The notes below the pieces were generated by a model, which did not search any database, was not told the origin of the DNA, and saw only the letters and a list, made by a program, of their open reading frames with translations. Source: Ruminococcus sp. (GTDB lineage Bacteria; Bacillota; Clostridia; Oscillospirales; Ruminococcaceae). From it: DNA of 34,160 nucleotides. Positions 19,636 to 30,229 of the stretch are shown here, in pieces. The position numbers and the translations under genes are program-made. The stretch spans positions 1-34,160 of the forward strand of contig JAFXXD010000037.1 in NCBI GenBank assembly GCA_017542475.1, written 5' to 3'. Position 1 is the stretch's first letter, and every line of letters begins with the position of its first letter.

Positions 19636-20817
19636 TCAGTGATGGAACAGGCGGATACCTGTGAATGCCATAGCGATGTTATACTTGTTGCAGGTCTCGA
19701 TGACGTTGTCGTCGCGGATAGAGCCGCCGGGCTCGGCGATGAACTCAACGCCCGACTTCTTTGCACGCTCGATGTTGTCGCCGAAGGGGAAGAACGCATC
19801 AGAGCCGAGGCAAACGCCCGTATTCTTAGCGAGCCAAGCCTTCTTCTCCTCGACTGTGAACACAGCGGGCTTCACCTTGAAGATACGCTGCCACTCGCCC
19901 TCGCGGAGCACGTCCTCGTACTCGTCGCCGATGTATACGTCGATAGCGTTGTCGCGGTCTGCGCGGCGGATATCGTCAACGAACTGCAATCCCATTACCT
20001 GCGGGGACTGTCTCAGCCACCAGTTGTCAGCCTTCTGACCTGCGAGGCGTGTGCAGTGGATACGCGACTGCTGACCCGCACCGATACCGATAGCCTGACC
20101 GTCCTTGACGTAGCATACGGAGTTGGACTGCGTGTATTTCAGCGTGATGAGCGAGATGAGGAGGTCGTCCTTCTTGTCGTCGGGGATATCCTTGTTCTCG
20201 GTAACTACGTTTGAGAGGAGCTCGCGGTTGATATCGAGCTCATTGCGTCCCTGCTCGAAGGACACGCCGTAGACCTGCTTTGTCTCGATAGGAGCGGGCT
20301 TGTAGCTCGGGTCTATCTTGAGTATGCAGTATGTGCCCTTGCGCTTGGATTTGAGTATCTCGAGAGCCTCGGGGTCATAGTCGGGAGCGATAACGCCGTC
20401 GGACACCTCACGCTGTATCATCTTAGCGGTGCATACGTCCACCTTGTCGGAGAGGGCGATGAAGTCGCCGTAGGAGGACATTCTGTCAGCGCCGCGAGCT
20501 CTTGCATAAGCGCTTGCGAGAGGAGTGAGCTCACCGAGGTCGTCCACCCAGTATATCTTCTTGAGGTCGTCGGAGAGCGGTCTGCCGATAGCCGCACCCG
20601 CGGGAGAAACGTGCTTGAATGAGGTAGCCGCGCAAACGCCCGTAGCCGCCTTCAGCTCCTTGACGAGCTGCCAGCCGTTGAGAGCGTCGAGCAGATTGAT
20701 GTAGCCGGGACGTCCGCAGAGCACCTCTATCGGGAGCTCGCTGCCGTCAGCCATATAGACTCTTGACGGCTTCTGATTCGGGTTACAGCCGTATTTTAAC
20801 TGCATTTCGTTTGACAT
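19636..20817 (-). CDS. Stand-alone AICAR transformylase (PurH C-terminal activity)
   Basis: This enzyme transfers a formyl group from 10-formyltetrahydrofolate to AICAR, giving FAICAR, the second last step of IMP synthesis. The ATG at 20817 (MSNEMQLKYGCNPNQKPSRV) follows AAGGAGG at ideal distance. LKYGCNPNQKPS corresponds to the start of the transformylase half of bifunctional PurH, and FKHVSPAGAAIG holds the Lys-His catalytic pair. At 393 residues only this half is present; the N-terminal IMP cyclohydrolase half of PurH is missing. That activity is instead supplied by the PurO-type gene two places upstream (21755-22468). Good confidence in the family; the pairing is an inference. Confidence 0.9.
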   Translation of the reverse strand: MSNEMQLKYGCNPNQKPSRVYMADGSELPIEVLCGRPGYINLLDALNGWQLVKELKAATGVCAATSFKHVSPAGAAIGRPLSDDLKKIYWVDDLGELTPLASAYARARGADRMSSYGDFIALSDKVDVCTAKMIQREVSDGVIAPDYDPEALEILKSKRKGTYCILKIDPSYKPAPIETKQVYGVSFEQGRNELDINRELLSNVVTENKDIPDDKKDDLLISLITLKYTQSNSVCYVKDGQAIGIGAGQQSRIHCTRLAGQKADNWWLRQSPQVMGLQFVDDIRRADRDNAIDVYIGDEYEDVLREGEWQRIFKVKPAVFTVEEKKAWLAKNTGVCLGSDAFFPFGDNIERAKKSGVEFIAEPGGSIRDDNVIETCNKYNIAMAFTGIRLFHH

Positions 20818-20846
20818 AATAATGTCCTCCTTATAATAAATCATAA

Positions 20847-21755
20847 TTAGCTATTTATGTCCTCGTATTCGTATCGGTAGCTGTACGCAGCATGCTTGTC
20901 TGCTTTCAATTCAACGATATCCTTGGATATCAGGCGCCCCTTGTCGTCGTACTCATACTCTGTTGAACTTGAATCGCCATTTGAGACCTTTTGTGTCTCT
21001 TTTATGAGATCACCTTTGCTGTCGTATGAACACTCTGTTGTGTACACAGTGCTATCGTCTGAATTATCCGAGGACTCCGTCCTCACCTTCGTGAGAACAT
21101 TTCCCGCTTCATCGTAGGTAAACTCGGTCACCTGTGACAAGCCGTCACCTTGCCACGTTTCCTTTATAAGCTCACCGCCGCTGCCGTACTCACATTTTGT
21201 TTCAGAGCGGGATAAGACCTTCCCGTCGGCGTCATAGTTCAGATAAAGAATCTCACTTCCGCGGCTGTCATATTCCCTGCAATAATTCTTCCGCCACAGT
21301 CCCGAATCATTGTCCTCCATGTAATTCACATGATAATTCATCGTTCCATCGGGATAATAATAGAACCTGTCATAGAAGAAAGCCTTCCTGTCGGTGGACG
21401 GCGGGTTTATATAGCTTTTGGTCTTTTCCGTGACGTTGCCGTTTTCGTCATAGGTATAGCAGTAGACCTCGGTCATCTGCATATTTTCGGGGTCACCGAC
21501 GGTCTCTGACCTGATAATGTTATCGTGCTCGTCAAAGTCGGCATAGCGTTTGCAGGTCACCTCGCCGTCCTCATACTGATATGATGTGCATCTGTACACA
21601 GCCTGATTTTCGGGCAAGTCCACTATCTCGTCCGAAACGGTATCAGGCAGGTCGGCAATATTTAAAGTCTCCGCCGCTTTCTTTGAGCCGCACCCTGCAA
21701 ATGACAGAAGTGCCGCCGTGAGGAGCACAGCAAGCCGTTTTTTTATCCCCTGCAT
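20847..21755 (-). CDS. Predicted lipoprotein with YD/RHS-like repeats
   Basis: An exported protein of 302 residues. The N-terminus is a signal peptide (KKRLAVLLTAALLSFAGC) with a lipobox-like FAGC, so it is likely anchored to the outer face of the membrane through Cys22. The mature part has repeated strands of the kind YTYDENGNVTEKTK, FTYDEAGNVLTKVR, CSYDSKGDLIKE and YEYDDKGRLISKD, resembling the YD repeats of RHS proteins. The ATG shares one base with the stop of the cyclohydrolase gene and has no ribosome binding site of its own, so it depends on coupling. Its function is unknown; its place between two purine genes is unusual. Confidence 0.8.
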   Translation of the reverse strand: MQGIKKRLAVLLTAALLSFAGCGSKKAAETLNIADLPDTVSDEIVDLPENQAVYRCTSYQYEDGEVTCKRYADFDEHDNIIRSETVGDPENMQMTEVYCYTYDENGNVTEKTKSYINPPSTDRKAFFYDRFYYYPDGTMNYHVNYMEDNDSGLWRKNYCREYDSRGSEILYLNYDADGKVLSRSETKCEYGSGGELIKETWQGDGLSQVTEFTYDEAGNVLTKVRTESSDNSDDSTVYTTECSYDSKGDLIKETQKVSNGDSSSTEYEYDDKGRLISKDIVELKADKHAAYSYRYEYEDINS

Positions 21756-22468
21756 TACTTGTTCTTGTTTACGATACGTGTCTCCTCGGTATTGTTTTCG
21801 AGGTCAACGTAGCGCACAAACAGCGACACCTTGTTGTCGGCATTGAGGTTATTCCAGAGCATATCGGTGAACTGGTCGATGCTTCCGCTTATGCCGACGA
21901 GCTTGGGCTCGCCCTCAAAGCTCGGGAGCGGGCTGCCGTCACCCATATAGGTGTGGATGAAGTGACCCTCACCCGCAATGGGGTTAGTGTAGCTGAAGGT
22001 ATAGCGCTGGCAGGAATCGGGGTTGCCGTTAGCGCTCTTGAGAATGGACATAGCGTAGTTGAAGTCGCCTGAATCGAAGCGGAGTATGCCCGAGATACGG
22101 GGCGTATAGTTGGGAGCATCGTCCTCGAACTCGCGCGAGCGGAGCGACTGCTCGAAGGTGTACTGCTTGTCCATGAGCTCATAGATAGTGTCGGTCTGGT
22201 CGCCGTTGGTGACGATGAGCTTGTTGCCGAGAACTCTCACGGGCGCATAGATGATGAGGTGCGGGTCGGTGAGCTTCGACGGGTCGAACGCCTCAGTGCG
22301 GATGCCCTTGCCCTCCTCGATGAATACGCTGTTGCGGCTGTTCTCGCTCCTGCCCATGATGAAGTAAGCGGTAACAGCGTACTTGCCGTCCTCCGACTTA
22401 CCGATGATGATACCTCTTCCGGGGTATGCATTCGAGCTGAGCTCCTGTGCCAGATCAAGCTTTTTCAT
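21755..22468 (-). CDS. PurO-type IMP cyclohydrolase
   Basis: IMP cyclohydrolase closes FAICAR to IMP, the last step of purine synthesis. The ATG at 22468 (MKKLDLAQELSSNAYPGRG) follows AAAGGAG. The protein resembles the family described from archaea as PurO (PF07826 type), with PGRGIIIGKSEDGKYAVTAY, a MGRSENSRNSVF segment, and a Gly-rich later part GEGHFIHTYMGDGSPLPSFEG. It is unrelated to the MGS-like cyclohydrolase half of PurH. Length is 237 residues. The assignment rests on remembered family patterns plus the neighbouring stand-alone transformylase, which lacks this activity. It is followed with a one-base overlap by the lipoprotein gene. Confidence 0.82.
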   Translation of the reverse strand: MKKLDLAQELSSNAYPGRGIIIGKSEDGKYAVTAYFIMGRSENSRNSVFIEEGKGIRTEAFDPSKLTDPHLIIYAPVRVLGNKLIVTNGDQTDTIYELMDKQYTFEQSLRSREFEDDAPNYTPRISGILRFDSGDFNYAMSILKSANGNPDSCQRYTFSYTNPIAGEGHFIHTYMGDGSPLPSFEGEPKLVGISGSIDQFTDMLWNNLNADNKVSLFVRYVDLENNTEETRIVNKNK

Positions 22469-22517
22469 AGTGATTGACTCCTTTCGGATTGATTTGATTG
22501 TTCGTATATTTGCGGGC

Positions 22518-22572
22518 GGACGCGCAATGCGCGTCCCTACATATACCCTGTAGGGACGACCATCGGTCGTCC
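22518..22572. repeat. Pair of palindromic repeats in head-to-head arrangement
   Basis: GGACGCGCA-a-TGCGCGTCC (22518-22536) and GGACGACC-atc-GGTCGTCC (22554-22572) flank CCCTACATATACCCTGTAGGG. They belong to the TAGGG-bordered palindrome family also seen at 12833-12976, 25225-25288 and 26513-26580. They lie in the leader of the IMP cyclohydrolase gene. Confidence 0.7.
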
Positions 22573-22579
22573 GCACGAT

Positions 22580-23215
22580 TTAATTCCGAATTCCGAATCC
22601 CGAATTCCGAATTACAGAAACAGCATTTTCCACCTGTGCAAGCTTTGGCGTGTAGCCAGTCGCCTTTGTGACAATGAAGTCCGCGACCACTATCACGAGT
22701 ACGGCGGCGGCGATGATATTGATAGCCTTTCTGCTCGGCTTGCTGAGAAGCCGGTCGAACAGCGGCTGAACGACGTACATAAAGAGCAGACCGCCCAGTC
22801 CGAAGCGAATGGACGTGCTCAGCGCGATACGCGCCTGGAAATTGTATTTGTAGCGGGAGTAGGTCTGCCACGGCCACGAGCCCTTGGTGAATTCGAGCAC
22901 ATAGGAAGCGGCGAGCTCCACCGCCGTAGCAACGAGCATACACCCGAGGAAGATTAGCAGAGGCTTCACCAGTATCTCCACGGTGAGGCTGTACTTTTTC
23001 TTCTTGAACCACCCGAAGCAGAGCAGGAAGAGCAGGGCTCCCGTGCCGTATATCGGGCAGTAGGGACCGAACAGCTCGCCTCTGTTATGGAAGCCCCAGC
23101 GGTACACGACGACCTCGAGGAAGACCTCGTAGCACCAGCCGAGCACGGCATACATCCAGAAGCAGATGAACAGCTTCTGCACGAGCTGCTTTTCCTTTAT
23201 CTCGGCGAAGCTCAT
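22580..23215 (-). CDS. CmpB-type (PF06541-like) membrane protein with repeat-derived C-terminus
   Basis: The protein has five to six hydrophobic segments and the pattern WMYAVLGWCYEVFLEVVVYR and NRGELFGPYCPIYGTGALL that marks the family called putative ABC-transporter type IV (CmpB-like), whose role is unknown. The ATG at 23215 overlaps the purN stop by four bases (ATGA), implying coupled translation; a longer reading frame starts in purN and is not used. Length is 211 residues. The last ten residues (IRNSGFGIRN) and the stop are encoded by a small tandem repeat (22582-22614), so the original C-terminus has been replaced. Confidence 0.82.
   Translation of the reverse strand: MSFAEIKEKQLVQKLFICFWMYAVLGWCYEVFLEVVVYRWGFHNRGELFGPYCPIYGTGALLFLLCFGWFKKKKYSLTVEILVKPLLIFLGCMLVATAVELAASYVLEFTKGSWPWQTYSRYKYNFQARIALSTSIRFGLGGLLFMYVVQPLFDRLLSKPSRKAINIIAAAVLVIVVADFIVTKATGYTPKLAQVENAVSVIRNSGFGIRN
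22582..22614. repeat. GAATTCCGAATT-type short repeat inside the end of a gene
   Basis: The string AATTCCGAATTCCGAATC followed by CCGAATTCCGAATTA is a run of slightly varied 7- to 8-nt units. It covers the last codons of the CmpB-type gene. A related run of AATTACGAATTACGCATT units lies after purF (26591-26624). Confidence 0.75.
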
Positions 23216-23835
23216 ATCACATAAGCCTTTCCGTCGCGTATCTCTATCCTGTCCTGACAGAAGAGCGAAACCGCCTCGGGGAGTATCTTCCACTCAGCCT
23301 GTTCCATAATGCGCTTCTGGAGAGTTTCGGGCGTGTCGCCGTTCTCTACGGGGACAGCCTTCTGCACGATTATCGGACCTCCGTCGCAGACCTCGGTCAC
23401 GAAATGCACGGTCGCGCCCGAGAGCTTCACTCCCGCCGCAAGCGCTGCCTCGTGGACGTGCAGCCCGTAGAAGCCCTTGCCGCAGAAGCTCGGTATCAGC
23501 GCAGGGTGGACGTTCATCATCTTATAGGGGAAAGCCTTTACTATCTGCTCGTCGAGTATGGTCATAAAGCCCGCGTACACGACGAGGTCAGCCTTCTCCG
23601 CGAGGAGAGCGTCTGTGACAGCCTTAGTGTAGGAGGCTATGTCGGCGTAGTCCTTTCGCGGGATAACGAGGCTCTTTATGCCGTTCTGAGCGGCACGTTC
23701 AAGCGCATAGACGCCCTCCTTCGAGGATATCACGCAGCTTATCCTGCCGTTTTTGATGATACCCGACTTCTCGGCGTCGATGAGTGCCTGAAGGTTCGTG
23801 CCTCCTCCCGAGACGAGGACAGCTATATTTTTCAT
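23212..23835 (-). CDS. purN: Phosphoribosylglycinamide formyltransferase
   Basis: PurN converts GAR to FGAR with 10-formyltetrahydrofolate, the third step of purine synthesis. The ATG at 23835 (MKNIAVLVSGGGTNLQALID) is eight bases from AGGAGG; the ATG at 23841 is too close to that site. The family signatures are SGGGTNLQ, the catalytic region MNVHPALIPSFCGKGFYGLH (Asn and His), and GATVHFVTEVCDGGPIIVQ with the catalytic Asp. Length 207 is normal. It lies 15 nt after a DUF3592 gene and overlaps the next gene by four bases. Confidence 0.96.
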   Translation of the reverse strand: MKNIAVLVSGGGTNLQALIDAEKSGIIKNGRISCVISSKEGVYALERAAQNGIKSLVIPRKDYADIASYTKAVTDALLAEKADLVVYAGFMTILDEQIVKAFPYKMMNVHPALIPSFCGKGFYGLHVHEAALAAGVKLSGATVHFVTEVCDGGPIIVQKAVPVENGDTPETLQKRIMEQAEWKILPEAVSLFCQDRIEIRDGKAYVI

Positions 23836-23850
23836 TGTCATTTCCTCCTG

Positions 23851-24333: not shown

Positions 24334-25206
24334 TTATTTCGGGAACTGCACGTGTCCCTGTATTATCTCTGTGTCGTCGGTGGAGAGCGGAATGCCCTTA
24401 TCGACGATGACCTGTCCGTAGATATCGGTAATGCGGAAATCGAACGGACCCGCGCCCATTTCTCGCGACTCGAAGTAGTTGTAGGCACGGCGCTCTATCT
24501 CGACCCATTCGCCGTCCTTCATATATTCGAGCCTTGTTATCGGATAGCGGTGGTTGCGCACCTGCACGCCGCACCAGAACTCCGTCGTGCCCTCCTTGTA
24601 CTTGTAGCACACGGGAGCATCCTCCGCCGAATCGAGCGGCACTATCTTCCAGCTGACGGGAACTCTTCCCTTCTCCACGGGAGCTATCAGCGGGAAGGCG
24701 TCGGTGTAGAGGTCGAGGTCGCCCTTTTTGCCCTCGGGGAGCTCGTCGGTGACGAGCATATTTATCGTGCCGAGCTCGCCCGTGACCTCAAGGTAAGCAC
24801 CCGCGAGCTGAGCGCAGTTGTAGTCGGAGTGGTTCATCGCGACTATCCAGTAATCGTGGGAGACGGGGTCGAGCATAGCGTGACCGCCCTCGTATCCGCC
24901 GCCGTAGAACGTGCCCTCGCCCGTGTGGACGGTGCCCTTGGGCTCGAGGATACAGCTCTCGTCTATGGTGTAGTCGCTGTCGTAGCCGCCGCTTGAAGAA
25001 GAGACAGGCTTACCGAGCACGAAGTCGGAGACGGCTTGGAGCTCCGCCTTGTCAGCGCCCGACTGCCGCGCCGCGACGATATCGAAGGTATCGACGCGCC
25101 CGTCGGAGTTGTAGTCCATAGGGATATTTCCCGCCGAGAAAGCGGGGACTGCCGTCACGGTCATTATCACTGCTGCCGCAGCAGCTGAAATGATGAGCTT
25201 TTTCAT
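24334..25206 (-). CDS. Secreted bacterial expansin with N-terminal half dockerin
   Basis: Expansins loosen cellulose networks without hydrolysis. The signal peptide covers about residues 1-25. A single dockerin-type calcium loop follows (MDYNSDGRVDTFDIVAARQ), then a helix ending SDFVLGKP that looks like a second dockerin repeat without its calcium loop. From about residue 85 the sequence parallels Bacillus EXLX1: GTFYGGGYEGGHAMLDP, YLEVTGELGTINMLVTDELP, GDLDLYTDAF, then the cellulose-binding second domain with CGVQVRNHRYP and a final GHVQFPK. The two catalytic-cleft Asp residues (VTD and LDL) are kept, but the cleft Tyr is Leu, and the first aromatic of the WW pair is Phe (FW). Length is 290. 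The ATG at 25206 follows AAGGTGATG. It sits between purM and DUF3592/purN, an odd place. Confidence 0.88.
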   Translation of the reverse strand: MKKLIISAAAAAVIMTVTAVPAFSAGNIPMDYNSDGRVDTFDIVAARQSGADKAELQAVSDFVLGKPVSSSSGGYDSDYTIDESCILEPKGTVHTGEGTFYGGGYEGGHAMLDPVSHDYWIVAMNHSDYNCAQLAGAYLEVTGELGTINMLVTDELPEGKKGDLDLYTDAFPLIAPVEKGRVPVSWKIVPLDSAEDAPVCYKYKEGTTEFWCGVQVRNHRYPITRLEYMKDGEWVEIERRAYNYFESREMGAGPFDFRITDIYGQVIVDKGIPLSTDDTEIIQGHVQFPK

Positions 25207-25224
25207 AACATCACCTTGTCGCAC

Positions 25225-25446: not shown

Positions 25447-26484
25447 TCAGCAAATGATAACGCCTTCTTCGGACTCAACGAGCTCGCCGAGGATATAAGC
25501 GTCCTCGCCCGCAGTCTTGATAGCTGCGACAGCCTTGTCTGCGTCGTTCTTATCCACGCAAACGACCATACCTACGCCCATATTGAAGGTGTTGAACATA
25601 TCGCGCTCGGGGATGTCGCCGCAGCGCTTGATGAGGTCGAATATCGGGAGCACCTGAACAGCATTGCGCTCTATCTTAGCCGCGAGACTGCTCGGGAGCG
25701 AGCGCGGGATATTCTCGTAGAAGCCGCCGCCCGTGATGTGGGAGATGGACTTCACATTAACAGCCTTGAGGAGGCTCATCACAGCCTTCACGTAAATTCT
25801 TGTAGGTGTGAGGAGAGCCTCGCCGAGAGTAGCACCGAGGTCATCGAAGTGCATATTCAGCTTCTCCTCGTTTACGTCGAACACGCTTCTTACGAGCGAG
25901 AAGCCGTTCGAGTGCACGCCGCTCGACTTTATGGCAATGAGGACATCTCCCGCCTTCTGAGTTTCGGGCTTGAGTATCTTGTCCTTATCGACAACGCCGA
26001 CCGAGAAGCCTGCGAGGTCGTACTCGTCCTCGGGCATAAGACCGGGGTGCTCGGCAGTCTCGCCGCCGATGAGAGCGCACTCAGCCTGCACGCAGCCCTC
26101 AGCTACGCCCGAAACGATGTCCGCGATCTTCTCGGGGACATTCTTTCCGCAGGCGATATAGTCGAGGAAGAACTGCGGCTTTGCACCGCAGCAGATGATG
26201 TCGTTCACGCACATAGCGACGCAGTCGATGCCGACGGTGTCGTGCTTGTCGAGAATGAACGCTATCTTTATCTTTGTACCGACGCCGTCCGTACCCGAAA
26301 CGAGAACGGGCTTGCTGATACCTGTGAGGTCAAGCTCGAACAGACCGCCGAAGCCGCCGATGCCCGAAAGAACGCCGGGTATCATGGTACGCGCGATGTG
26401 CTGCTTCATCAGCTCGACTGACTTATAGCCGGCAGTAACGTCAACGCCTGCCTTCTTGTAGCTCTCGGAAAAACTGTTGTTCAT
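25447..26484 (-). CDS. purM: Phosphoribosylformylglycinamidine cyclo-ligase (AIR synthetase)
   Basis: PurM closes the imidazole ring of FGAM using ATP to give AIR. The 345-residue product has the typical [20 protein letters not shown] start, the ATP-site region [27 protein letters not shown], and [12 protein letters not shown]. The ATG follows TGGAGGAA. Between purF and purM lie 142 nt with palindromic repeats; I see no clear promoter there. The expansin gene follows on the same strand after 240 nt of repeats. Confidence 0.97.
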
Positions 26485-26626: not shown

Positions 26627-28051
26627 TTATTCTTTTCCGCTCCAGCAGTAGGTGCAGAGGCTGCACTCGGGAAGTCCGACCGCCTTTACCTTACCCTCCA
26701 GCGACTGGAACTCCAGCGAGGTGAGCTTGAGGCGCTTGCATATCTCGTCGCGCATACGCTTGCCGCGCTCGGTGTTGGTATCGCTGTATTCGGCGAGGTA
26801 CTTCACGCCCTCCTCGCCCTCGAATTCGTCGATGATCTGACGGGCGATGAGCTCCAGCTCGGAGTGGCTGCGTGAGAAGTTGAGGTACTTGCAGCCGTAC
26901 ATTATAGGCGGACAGGCAGAGCGCATATGTACTTCCTTGGCGCCGTTCTCGTAGAGGAACTCGACAGTTTCTCTCATCTGCGTGCCGCGTACTATACTGT
27001 CGTCCACGAAGAGAAGGCGCTTGCCCTCGATGAGCTCGTGAACGGGAATGAGCTTCATTTTAGCGACCACGTTTCTCATGCTCTGATTGGTAGGCATAAA
27101 GCTTCGCGGCCACGTGGGGGTGTACTTGATGAACGGGCGGGCAAAGGGAATGCCGCTCCTGTTGGCGTAGCCGATAGCGTGAGGCGTGCCCGAATCGGGA
27201 ACTCCGCACACGTAGTCAACATCGGGGAGCTTGCCTGCCGCGATGTCATTTTCAGCCATTATCTCGCCGTTGCGGGTACGCATCACCTCGACATTCACGC
27301 CCTCATAGCAGGCAGTCGGGTAGCCGTAATACGTCCACAGGAAGGTGCATATCTTCATCTTTGAAGGGTCGCCCTCGGCGAGGACGTCCACGCCGTCTGC
27401 GGTTATCTTCACTATCTCGCCTGCCTGAAGCTCCTTGCAGGTCTCATAGCCGAGCTTCTGGAAGGCGAAGCTCTCGGTGGAGAGGCAGTAGCCGTCCCAG
27501 CGCTTGCCAACGACGACAGGCAGTCTGCCGTACTTGTCGCGGGCGGCGATGATACTGTCCTTGGTGAGTATGATAAGGGACATCGTGCCCTCTATCTTTT
27601 CCTGAGCGTAGCGTATGCCCTCGACGAAGCTACCGCGCTGAGCGATGAGAGCGCCGATGAGGTCGCCCGAGTTGATATTTCCGCTCGACATAGCCTCGAA
27701 GTTGGCACAGCCGTTCTCGAGGAGCTCGTCCACGAGTGCGTCGGCGTTGCGGATGATGCCGACCGAGCAGACGGCGTAAAGGCCCATTTTCGAGCGCACG
27801 AGGATAGGCTGGGGGTCTGTATCGCTGATACAGCCGATACAGAGCTTGCCTCTCATATTAACAACGTCGTCCTCGAATTTAGTTCTGAAGGGTGAATTTT
27901 CTATACTGTGAATGTTTCTCTGAAAGCCCTTGTCCTCGGAGTACGAGGTCATACCGCCGCGGCGCGTGCCGAGGTGGGAGTGGTAGTCCGTACCGAAAAA
28001 AACATCAGTAATGCAGTCGTTCTTGGAAGCCGCACCGAAAAATCCGCCCAT
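26627..28051 (-). CDS. PurF-like amidophosphoribosyltransferase, glutaminase site apparently lost
   Basis: PurF makes phosphoribosylamine from PRPP and glutamine, the first purine step. The PRTase half is intact: the PRPP motif FVDDSIVRGT is at 348-357, and Cys235, Cys387, Cys463 and Cys466 match the Fe-S ligands of Bacillus PurF. The N-terminal Ntn domain is not normal: it begins MGGFFGAASK where PurF has (M)CGIVGI, so the catalytic N-terminal Cys is Gly. The start is fixed by the in-frame stop of purC three bases upstream. Other glutamine-site positions also differ (GCISDT for GHVRYST, CSVGIIRNA for AHNGNLTNA). It may use free ammonia, a partner, or be a paralogue. Length is 474. Homologues of this type are, as I recall, usually just annotated as amidophosphoribosyltransferase. 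Confidence 0.85.
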   Translation of the reverse strand: MGGFFGAASKNDCITDVFFGTDYHSHLGTRRGGMTSYSEDKGFQRNIHSIENSPFRTKFEDDVVNMRGKLCIGCISDTDPQPILVRSKMGLYAVCSVGIIRNADALVDELLENGCANFEAMSSGNINSGDLIGALIAQRGSFVEGIRYAQEKIEGTMSLIILTKDSIIAARDKYGRLPVVVGKRWDGYCLSTESFAFQKLGYETCKELQAGEIVKITADGVDVLAEGDPSKMKICTFLWTYYGYPTACYEGVNVEVMRTRNGEIMAENDIAAGKLPDVDYVCGVPDSGTPHAIGYANRSGIPFARPFIKYTPTWPRSFMPTNQSMRNVVAKMKLIPVHELIEGKRLLFVDDSIVRGTQMRETVEFLYENGAKEVHMRSACPPIMYGCKYLNFSRSHSELELIARQIIDEFEGEEGVKYLAEYSDTNTERGKRMRDEICKRLKLTSLEFQSLEGKVKAVGLPECSLCTYCWSGKE

Positions 28052-28054
28052 AGC

Positions 28055-28774
28055 TTATTCTCCCATAAGTCTCTTCATGATTTCCTGATATGCCTCTTCA
28101 ACGCCGCCCATATCTCTGCGGAAGCGGTCCTTGTCGAGCTTCTCGTGGGTCGTGGAATCCCAGAAGCGGCAGGTATCGGGGGATATCTCGTCAGCGAGGA
28201 TGATAGTGCCGTCGGAAGTCTTACCGAACTCTATCTTGAAGTCGATGAGGTCGATGTTGAGACCCTTGAAGAACTTCACCATGAACTCGTTTACCTTGAA
28301 CGCATACTTTGCGATGGTATCTATCTCCTCCTTGGTAGCGATACCGAGAGCGAGAGCGTAGTAGTCGTTGATGAAGGGGTCGCCGAGGTCGTCGTTCTTA
28401 TAGCTGAATTCGAGTATCGGGCAGAGGAGCTGCTTGCCTTCTTCAACGCCCATTCTCTTGGAGAAGCTTCCTGCGGCTACGTTTCTGATGATTACCTCAA
28501 GGGGAACGATGGATACCTTTTTAACGATAGTCTCGCGGTCGCTTATCTCCTCTACGAGATGTGTGGGAACGCCTTCCTTCTCGAGCATCTTGAACATAAA
28601 GTTGGTCATCTTGTTGTTGATGACGCCCTTGCCTGCGATAGTGCCCTTCTTCTCGCCGTTGAACGCAGTAGCGTCGTCCTTGTAGTCAACGATAACGAGG
28701 TCGGGGTCGTTTGTGGCATAGACCTTCTTAGCCTTGCCCTCATAGAGCTGTTCCTTTTTAACGATGTTTTCCAT
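28055..28774 (-). CDS. purC: SAICAR synthetase
   Basis: PurC couples CAIR with aspartate using ATP. The 239-residue product shows [54 protein letters not shown] and the later SPDTCRFWD, all of them family signatures. Length is normal. AAGGAGG precedes the ATG. The stop is three bases from the purF start and lies in the same frame. A GC-rich inverted repeat (28817-28832) lies in the gap before it. Confidence 0.97.
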
Positions 28775-29075: not shown

Positions 29076-29729
29076 TCAATCCTTTCGTATGAGCATATCC
29101 GCGGCTGCCTGCGGAGTTTCCGCGGTGTAGTCGGCACCTGCTCCTTTGAACTCCTCCGCCGAGCCGTAGCCCCACAGCGCCCCGAGGCATTCAATGCCCG
29201 TCTGATGTGCGCCGAGAACGTCGTTCTGCCTGTCGCCGACCATCAGCACCTGCGAGCGGTCGGTGACGCCCGCCCTTGCGAGCACGTCCTCAATGACCTG
29301 AGCCTTTGTGATGCGCCCGACCTCAGCATCTGCACCGCCGACAACGTCGAAATACTTCGCAAGGTCGAATTTATCCATTATCCTGACGGAGTAGCATTCG
29401 AGCTTGCAGGTCGCGACTGCGAGGCACATTCCCGCGCTCCTGAGGCGTTCCAGCATTTCGCGGATACCGTCGTATACGTGATTCTCGAACAGCCCGACCG
29501 TGCTGTATCTCTCGCGGAACACCCGCACAGCCTCATCTGCCCGCTCATCGCTCATACCGCAGAACATCCTGAACGAATCTCCGAGCGGCGGACCGAGGAA
29601 GCGGTCGGGGTCGTCGGGTATCTCGAAGCCGAGCTTTTCCGCGGAGTAGTACAGGCTTTTCATTATGCCCTCGCGCGAATCGGTGAGCGTGCCGTCGAGG
29701 TCGAAAAGTATGTATCTGAATCTGTTCAT
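29076..29729 (-). CDS. HAD-family hydrolase (Gph/phosphatase type)
   Basis: A small-molecule phosphatase of 217 residues. The nucleophile motif FDLDGTLTDS (Asp10, Asp12) is at the start, a helical cap domain covers about 17-80, motif II is in LAVATCK, motif III Lys in ITKAQ, and motif IV is VGDRQNDVLGA. This resembles phosphoglycolate phosphatase or pyrophosphatase-like subfamily IA enzymes; substrate is not readable. Its ATG overlaps the purE stop by one base (TGATG), so it may act on a nucleotide or sugar phosphate in the purine pathway; this is only inferred from position. Confidence 0.88.
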   Translation of the reverse strand: MNRFRYILFDLDGTLTDSREGIMKSLYYSAEKLGFEIPDDPDRFLGPPLGDSFRMFCGMSDERADEAVRVFRERYSTVGLFENHVYDGIREMLERLRSAGMCLAVATCKLECYSVRIMDKFDLAKYFDVVGGADAEVGRITKAQVIEDVLARAGVTDRSQVLMVGDRQNDVLGAHQTGIECLGALWGYGSAEEFKGAGADYTAETPQAAADMLIRKD

Positions 29730-30229
29730 CAGAGCGCGGGTATCTGCTCCTGCAAAGCCTTGTCCTTAGCGATAACGCCGTCAGCCATAGCCTTCTTCTC
29801 TGCGGCGAGCTTCTCTGCGAGAGCCTCGTCCTCAATGGCGAGCATCTGAACCGCGAGCACAGCCGCGTTCTTTGCACCGTCTATGCCGACGGTAGCCACG
29901 GGCACTCCGGGAGGCATCATAACTGTCGCGAGGAGAGCGTCCACACCCTCGAGAGCTTTCGACTTCATCGGTATGCCGATGACGGGGAGGGTGGTGTGTC
30001 CCGCGACAACGCCCGCGAGGTGAGCCGCCATACCTGCCGCGCAGATGACAGCTCCGAAGCCGTTCGCTCTTGCGTTAGAGGCGAATTCGCACGCCTCCGC
30101 GGGAGTCCTGTGTGCGCTCATAACTCTGCACTCGAACTCAACGCCGTACTTTTTCAGCTCTGTGAGAGCCGACTTTACAACAGGGAAATCGCTGTCGCTT
30201 CCCATGATGACTGCAACCTTTTTAGACAT
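29729..30229 (-). CDS. purE: N5-carboxyaminoimidazole ribonucleotide mutase
   Basis: PurE (class I) rearranges N5-CAIR to CAIR. The 166-residue product has the family signatures [52 protein letters not shown] and [19 protein letters not shown]. The ATG overlaps the end of the upstream WG-type gene by eight bases, with GGAG in that gene, and the stop overlaps the HAD gene. No purK is visible in this window. Confidence 0.97.

Follow-up and report, generated by a model that had tools for sequence, protein, structure and literature searches.

We describe here PurF2, a bacterial family of PurF homologues that has lost the glutaminase site and retained the PRPP site, is kept under selection, and occurs in canonical PurF's stead in genomes retaining purD and purM. 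We put at about 0.7 the probability that PurF2 works as a PRPP aminotransferase independent of glutamine, fed by ammonia, that opens purine synthesis, a reading that rests on comparison of protein sequences and gene content. The window, by which we mean the whole 34,160-nucleotide stretch of DNA that was analysed, comes from Ruminococcus sp. (assembly GCA_017542475.1, JAFXXD010000037.1) and is one whole contig of a draft genome of 2.66 Mb that is 94% complete. Close relatives of this genome are Ruminococcus, many of them labelled R. flavefaciens.

The PurF2 gene occupies 26627..28051 on the minus strand and encodes 474 aa from an ATG start in an intact open reading frame. The TIGR01134 profile gives the protein 185 bits, below the curated equivalog cut-off of 350, and PurF from the PDB (1gph) matches residues 78-423 (E=1.9e-45). 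The initial annotation held the start codon to be certain on account of an in-frame stop just upstream, and the sequence agrees: PurF2 begins 3 bases after the purC stop codon TAA, which is followed by the single codon GCT and then ATG GGC GGA, with GGGAG upstream. Because this TAA lies one codon before the ATG, no in-frame upstream Cys is possible, and a missed upstream start that would supply one is ruled out.

PurF2 sits in a pur operon. On the same minus strand run, in order, purE (29729..30229; TIGR01162, 184.8 bits), a HAD-family phosphatase (29076..29729; PF13419, 98.8 bits), purC (28055..28774; TIGR00081, 257.3 bits), PurF2, purM (25447..26484; TIGR00878, 433.1 bits), an expansin-like protein, purN (23212..23841; TIGR00639, 204 bits), an IMP cyclohydrolase of the archaeal (PurO) type (21755..22576; PF07826, 239.2 bits) and an AICAR formyltransferase (19636..20844; NF005492, 714.3 bits), with a few unassigned frames between them. 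The PurH functions are split in the window between this stand-alone formyltransferase and the separate archaeal-type cyclohydrolase. The gene placed between purM and purN within the purine operon encodes an expansin EXLX1-family cellulose-binding protein (24334-25224, minus strand; NF041144, 239.5 bits). No riboswitch reached the gathering score in the window. A scan of 31 loci, with flanks of about 1.5 kb for most, showed that the pur operon of two other genomes, G377 and G247, is headed by a ZMP/ZTP riboswitch (L126 4225-4305; L188 4219-4318); other matches were SAM in L146 and c-di-GMP-I in L148 and L149.

How much of the glutaminase site is gone? We aligned PurF2 with E. coli PurF, using mature numbering for the latter, and compared 159 distinct PurF2 proteins from 217 loci (80 via the Ruminococcus search and 79 from elsewhere) with 39 canonical PurFs, mostly top TIGR01134 matches. 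Only proteins scoring over 400 bits against the window protein were taken into the 159, which leaves remote members unrepresented. The initial annotation had read MGGFFGA in place of MCGIVGI, and the catalytic Cys1 is indeed replaced by Gly2 in the window protein (28046..28048, minus strand). This position is Gly in 150 and Ser in 9 of the 159 family members and Cys in 39/39 canonical proteins; the N-terminal catalytic Cys1 is present in 0/159. Arg26 of E. coli corresponds to Leu27, and Leu is found here throughout the family (159/159). An 8-residue deletion removes the glutamine loop with R73, Y74 and T76 and leaves I75-S76-D77 (27821..27829, minus strand); the loop stretch measures 17 residues in every PurF2 protein versus 25 in every canonical PurF, and the Arg that occurs somewhere near the deleted loop in 12/159 aligns to R73 in none. 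Val97 (27761..27763, minus strand) replaces the oxyanion Asn101, a column that reads Val 132, Ile 23, Thr 3 and Ala 1 and holds Asn in 0/159 PurF2 proteins versus 39/39 canonical ones, while the small G102 is retained in 151/159. Finally, Ser123 (27683..27685, minus strand) replaces the glutamine-binding Asp127; Asp is found in 1/159 PurF2 proteins and 39/39 canonical ones, in a column that sits in a loosely aligned stretch. Changes at the glutamine-binding Arg, the oxyanion Asn and the binding Asp, which had been suspected from the window alone, are thus seen as deletion of R73, Val for N101 and Ser for D127. According to part of PMC7953260, the glutamine loop of E. coli PurF spans R73-E84, and Y74 and I335 form a wall of the ammonia channel. 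Both sides of this wall are altered in PurF2: Y74 is deleted, and I335 has become Met in 139 proteins and Thr in 16, remaining Ile in 4.

The PRPP site is retained, as are the Fe-S cysteines. The PRPP loop, V349-DDSIVRGT357 (26981..27007, minus strand), is intact, with D, D, S, R, G and T each found in 159/159. In total, 13 PRPP-site positions from the PRPP, PPi and flexible loops are the same in all 159 proteins (Y258, P302, K326, R332, F334, R342, K349, D366, D367, S368, R371, G372 and T373). Cysteines C235 (27347..27349) and C387 (26891..26893) are kept in 159/159, and C466 and C469 (26645..26656) each in 158/159, all encoded on the minus strand. They align with the canonical PurF cysteines of the B. 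subtilis type, and an Fe-S cluster is predicted on that basis. The persistence of the PRPP loop and the four cysteines, proposed from the window sequence, therefore extends to the family alignment. Other positions have changed. K344, a contact in the simulations reported in part of PMC7953260, is not kept in PurF2, but nor is it kept in canonical PurFs. T333 is Ser, T374 is Gln and D408 is Phe in 159/159 PurF2 proteins, and PurF2 differs from PurF family-wide elsewhere in the flexible loop too. Because these positions differ throughout PurF2, a changed PRT chemistry is possible.

The former glutamine site has acquired conserved residues of its own. A family-specific block, D22-Y-H-S-H-L-G-T-R30 (27962..27988, minus strand), replaces the canonical ...LQHRGQ; D22, Y23, S25, H26 and L27 are invariant (159/159), H24 is found in 155/159 and T29 in 157/159. 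Together with D22-Y23-H24-S25-H26-L27-G28-T29, the newly conserved residues at this site are N52, F55-R56, K58-F59 and S76-D77, each present in at least 155/159. A structure prediction of PurF2 made from a shallow alignment had a mean pLDDT of 51.8 and was set aside, and a search for viral relatives that might deepen the alignment returned none.

Could PurF2 simply be a decaying gene? Over 79 Ruminococcus pairs compared with the window gene, dN/dS has a median of 0.069 for the dead domain and 0.051 for the PRT domain, with dS near saturation and finite in 61 and 64 pairs, respectively. No internal stops occur in any PurF2 match listed in our phylum, class and genus samples. Unbroken frames and the median dN/dS of 0.069 rule out a pseudogene. 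PurF2 is under purifying selection, and its glutaminase losses are beyond chance, since they are common to 159 distinct proteins and dN/dS is low.

PurF2 forms one clade apart from canonical PurF, on a long stem with an SH-aLRT of 100, in a quickly built tree with 77 PurF2 rows and 6 canonical ones, in which the program flags long branches (E. coli and other rows). At an identity of at least 52%, it was found in 28/398 genomes of the phylum sample, the host genome included; one further match at 38% identity (G395) was left unclassified and lies outside the 28. In the class sample it is present in 109/392 genomes, again including the host, with one partial match (G608, residues 1-314), and in the genus sample in 60/60, two as fragments. 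A second PurF-like match is present in 47/60 genus genomes; as 6 of the 13 that lack one have a completeness of 90% or more, the genus may be able to do without canonical PurF. Carriers belong to the Clostridia and Bacteroidota, and the gene also occurs in records labelled as plasmids, at 50-51% identity in Bacteroides finegoldii, Parabacteroides distasonis and Phocaeicola massiliensis and at 54% in Peptoclostridium acidaminophilum. A 12.9-kb record named 'Bacteriophage sp.' (MT836108.1, 6276-7697) carries PurF2 at 82.5% identity and is probably a bacterial contig.

The distribution of canonical PurF bears most directly on what PurF2 does. One profile test covered 80 of the 100 class PurF2 genomes that then still had to be examined (20 congeneric ones omitted), and a later search covered all 392. 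Canonical PurF absence was judged by one profile (TIGR01134, 350 bits), mostly in draft genomes: 311/392 genomes exceed the cut-off, and the 81 that do not comprise 26 with PurF2 and 55 without. Canonical PurF is therefore co-present in 83/109 class PurF2 genomes and absent from 26/109. The product of purD uses phosphoribosylamine (PRA) as its substrate. We found purD over the cut-off in 25/26 PurF2-only class genomes (20/21 and 5/5) versus 3/55 with neither protein (Fisher test, p=1.5e-16, counting genomes and ignoring relatedness). Two of the three exceptions among the 55, G543 and G684, have sub-cut-off canonical PurF matches (1.7e-80 and 5.5e-100), and the third, G692, is a 340-contig draft. 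Many of the 55 are small, about 0.8-1.8 Mb, and look like purine auxotrophs. Among 22 PurF2-only genomes (21 of the class plus G339 of the phylum sample), 20 have purD, 20 have purM and 19 have both; G566 and G339 lack purD, and G669 and G339 lack purM. Strongly supported branches force at least 8 changes to the PurF2-only state, and parsimony gives 15. Since 26/109 genomes are without canonical PurF and 25 of these keep purD, PurF2 alone can apparently supply PRA. In one further genome, canonical PurF profile matches fall in two segments of a single 544-aa frame, an insertion-like arrangement (G510:C84:5985-7493).

Gene order supports the absence of canonical PurF. In G572, where no canonical PurF was found, one contig carries purE-purC-PurF2-purM-purN-purO-AICARFT-purD-purL, an order resembled in G715, G409, G455, G434 and G536, some of which are without purC or purO in the stretch. 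In 11 PurF2-only genomes (G504, G619, G410, G467, G393, G433, G600, G479, G713, G772 and G404), purE abuts purM with no purF between; in another, G542, purC lies between purE and purM. PurF2 is located elsewhere in all of these junction genomes. Because such junctions are without purF, the absence of canonical PurF is not merely a matter of assembly gaps. Tandem PurF2/PurF genes also occur, with PurF2 first in G685, G726, G756 and G532, PurF first in G247 and G535, and further cases, by coordinates, in some genus members.

The initial annotation had proposed searching the host genome for a canonical purF, and one is present. It encodes 473 aa with a short leader before the Cys and lies away from the pur genes (L176 7631-18757; G000:C26), in a cluster that, with names read from sequence, we take to be gltB-gltD-glnA-ANTAR regulator-purF-asnB. 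This position was not seen to recur in 7 other canonical-purF loci with flanks of about 1.5 kb: their five best matches included no glnA, gltB or gltD, and their weak asnB matches fall inside purF itself. A candidate third PurF, a 631-aa frame with a TIGR01134 match, reads as glucosamine synthase, and judged by sequence we take it to be GlmS.

In many genomes PurF2 lies away from the pur operon, next to carB, pyr genes or pepT-gcvT. We fetched 71 stretches around PurF2, drawn from 36 taxon groups, and tallied neighbors using crude gene calling that called PurF2 itself in 63/71. carB occurs in 14 of the 71 stretches and 8 taxon groups, and other pyr genes, with names read from sequence, are recurrent. 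At six loci PurF2 follows 15-92 bp behind carB (L168, L169, L173 and L186 of f23; L259 and L286 of f145), and no carA was found at E<=1e-3 in the fetched stretch at any of them, although it may lie elsewhere in the genome. The sole carA match in all 71 stretches is partial, at the edge of L274. carB and PurF2 are possibly an ammonia-fed pair, two amination enzymes adjoining without a glutaminase. Behind PurF2 lie pepT and gcvT in Bacteroidota and pepT in Peptoclostridium (L243 12001-14800; L244 10001-13904; L245 10001-13783), a possible link to ammonia-releasing peptide and glycine breakdown.

How would PurF2 work? We propose that its C-terminal domain binds PRPP and makes PRA for PurD, and that the nitrogen is most likely free ammonia, which may reach the active site now that the deletion has removed a glutamine loop that helped to wall off the ammonia channel. 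The dead N-terminal domain would persist under constraint in a structural or regulatory role, probably in holding the oligomer together, regulating the enzyme or admitting ammonium. Precedent comes from E. coli PurF, in which changing Cys1 to Ala or Ser abolishes glutamine use although ammonia can still be used (Mei and Zalkin, as cited in section 6 of PMC3261824), and from Salmonella, in which, according to part of PMC3485032, purine need is unmet by any PurF-independent route. Because a Cys1-less E. coli PurF uses ammonia and no PurF-independent route suffices in Salmonella, we infer that PurF2 combines PRPP with ammonia to form PRA. The Ruminococcus genome would then have both routes, with PurF2 in the pur operon and canonical PurF in the nitrogen cluster, which suggests a division of labor in which the glutamine route is tied to nitrogen assimilation and the ammonia route to the pur operon.

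Other readings of PurF2 have to be weighed against this one. The initial annotation offered three outcomes, namely direct ammonia use, pairing with another glutaminase or a regulatory role. The PurF2-only genomes with purD fit ammonia use and argue against a mere regulator, though they are compatible with a partner glutaminase too. We consider it unlikely that PurF2 makes PRA with ammonia from a separate glutaminase, either canonical PurF in a mixed oligomer or another protein. The co-presence of canonical PurF in 83/109 class genomes means that the two proteins may cooperate, and the tandem genes would suit such a partnership. PurL, which carries its own glutaminase domain, also shares a stretch with PurF2 in 11 taxon families. 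However, 26 class genomes carry PurF2 without canonical PurF, carA appears in the 71 stretches only as the one partial match, and no stand-alone glutaminase was recognised, judging by eye, among the listed neighbor clusters. Free ammonia is favored over a partner because no stand-alone glutaminase was recognised as a recurring neighbor, because carB-PurF2 pairs occur without carA and because the habitats are ammonia-rich. Rumen cellulolytic ruminococci depend on ammonia. The same co-presence, extending to the host genome, and the same tandems could be explained if PurF2 were a pseudoenzyme that regulates canonical PurF or partners it structurally and has no catalytic activity. Yet this is quite improbable given the 13 PRPP-site positions kept in 159/159, the PurF2-only genomes with purD, and a genus in which PurF2 is more constant than the second PurF-like match (60/60 vs 47/60).

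The chance is slimmer still that PurF2 acts as a PRPP transferase on a different amine or in a different pathway. Its variable context outside the pur operon, its family-specific residues W239, Y244 and those of the flexible loop, and the T374 to Gln and D408 to Phe changes would all suit a different reaction, but PurF2 stands where purF would be expected in complete pur operons, and 25/26 genomes without canonical PurF keep purD, whose product requires PRA. It is barely credible that the N-terminal domain still hydrolyses an amide via another nucleophile. Cys13, which the initial annotation had raised as a possible nucleophile, is present in 143/159 proteins, and position 2 is Ser in nine; however, 16 proteins have Ala or Val instead of Cys13, and the remainder of the site has been lost: the glutamine loop and the oxyanion Asn are absent from 159/159 proteins, and the binding Asp from 158/159. 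Returning to the ammonia-fed enzyme, we offer one extension tentatively and with some doubt: the former glutamine pocket may have been rebuilt around D22-Y-H-S-H as an ammonium-capture vestibule feeding the old channel. With carB lacking an adjacent carA in some lineages, PurF2 might form part of a glutamine-sparing entry to nucleotides suited to ammonia-rich gut, rumen and amino-acid-fermenting anaerobes, including Bacteroidota, in which canonical PurF was repeatedly displaced.

How does PurF2 compare with known systems? It shares with canonical PurF (TIGR01134; B. subtilis Fe-S type) the two-domain layout, the PRPP and PPi loops, most of the flexible-loop residues checked, the four Fe-S cysteines and a place in the pur operon. 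Unlike canonical PurF, it lacks Cys1, the glutamine loop, the oxyanion Asn and the binding Asp, scores 185 bits against the cut-off of 350 and forms a long, separate branch. A nearer parallel, compared here by description only, is the crenarchaeal PurF', a Cys-less PurF homologue encoded near purF and other pur genes, which its authors in 2011 hypothesized to be an ammonia-dependent PRPP aminotransferase (part of PMC3261824). PurF2 and PurF' share the missing N-terminal Cys and the linkage to pur genes, although the linkage is not seen in all PurF2 carriers. As that part of the paper describes it, PurF' is accompanied by PurF in each Crenarchaeon studied, whereas PurF2 occurs without canonical PurF in 26/109 class genomes and, unlike PurF', takes canonical PurF's place in the operon. 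AsnA and AsnB are ammonia-using and glutamine-using versions of one step. NAD synthetases provide another ammonia-using counterpart of an amidotransferase step (part of PMC3376133). These proteins follow the same logic as PurF2 but are unrelated to it, and PurF2 retains a dead glutaminase domain. In the open-access papers searched we found no description of the bacterial PurF2 family, only the archaeal PurF' paper; PMC11535334 contains no purF. Our comparisons suggest novelty on two counts: the entire glutaminase site is dismantled in a bacterial family, and there is evidence that this family stands in for PurF.

Public records name PurF2 members 'amidophosphoribosyltransferase' or 'hypothetical protein', and pathway models may consequently assign the wrong nitrogen donor. 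The PurF2-only genomes also open the 2011 proposal for archaeal PurF' to direct testing, as they hold no PurF that would have to be disentangled, and we predict that the first purine step would resist glutamine analogues when it proceeds via PurF2. Standard teaching has the first committed step of purine synthesis depend on glutamine. Our findings suggest that many bacteria of the gut and rumen possess, and that some rely only on, a glutamine-incapable version of it.
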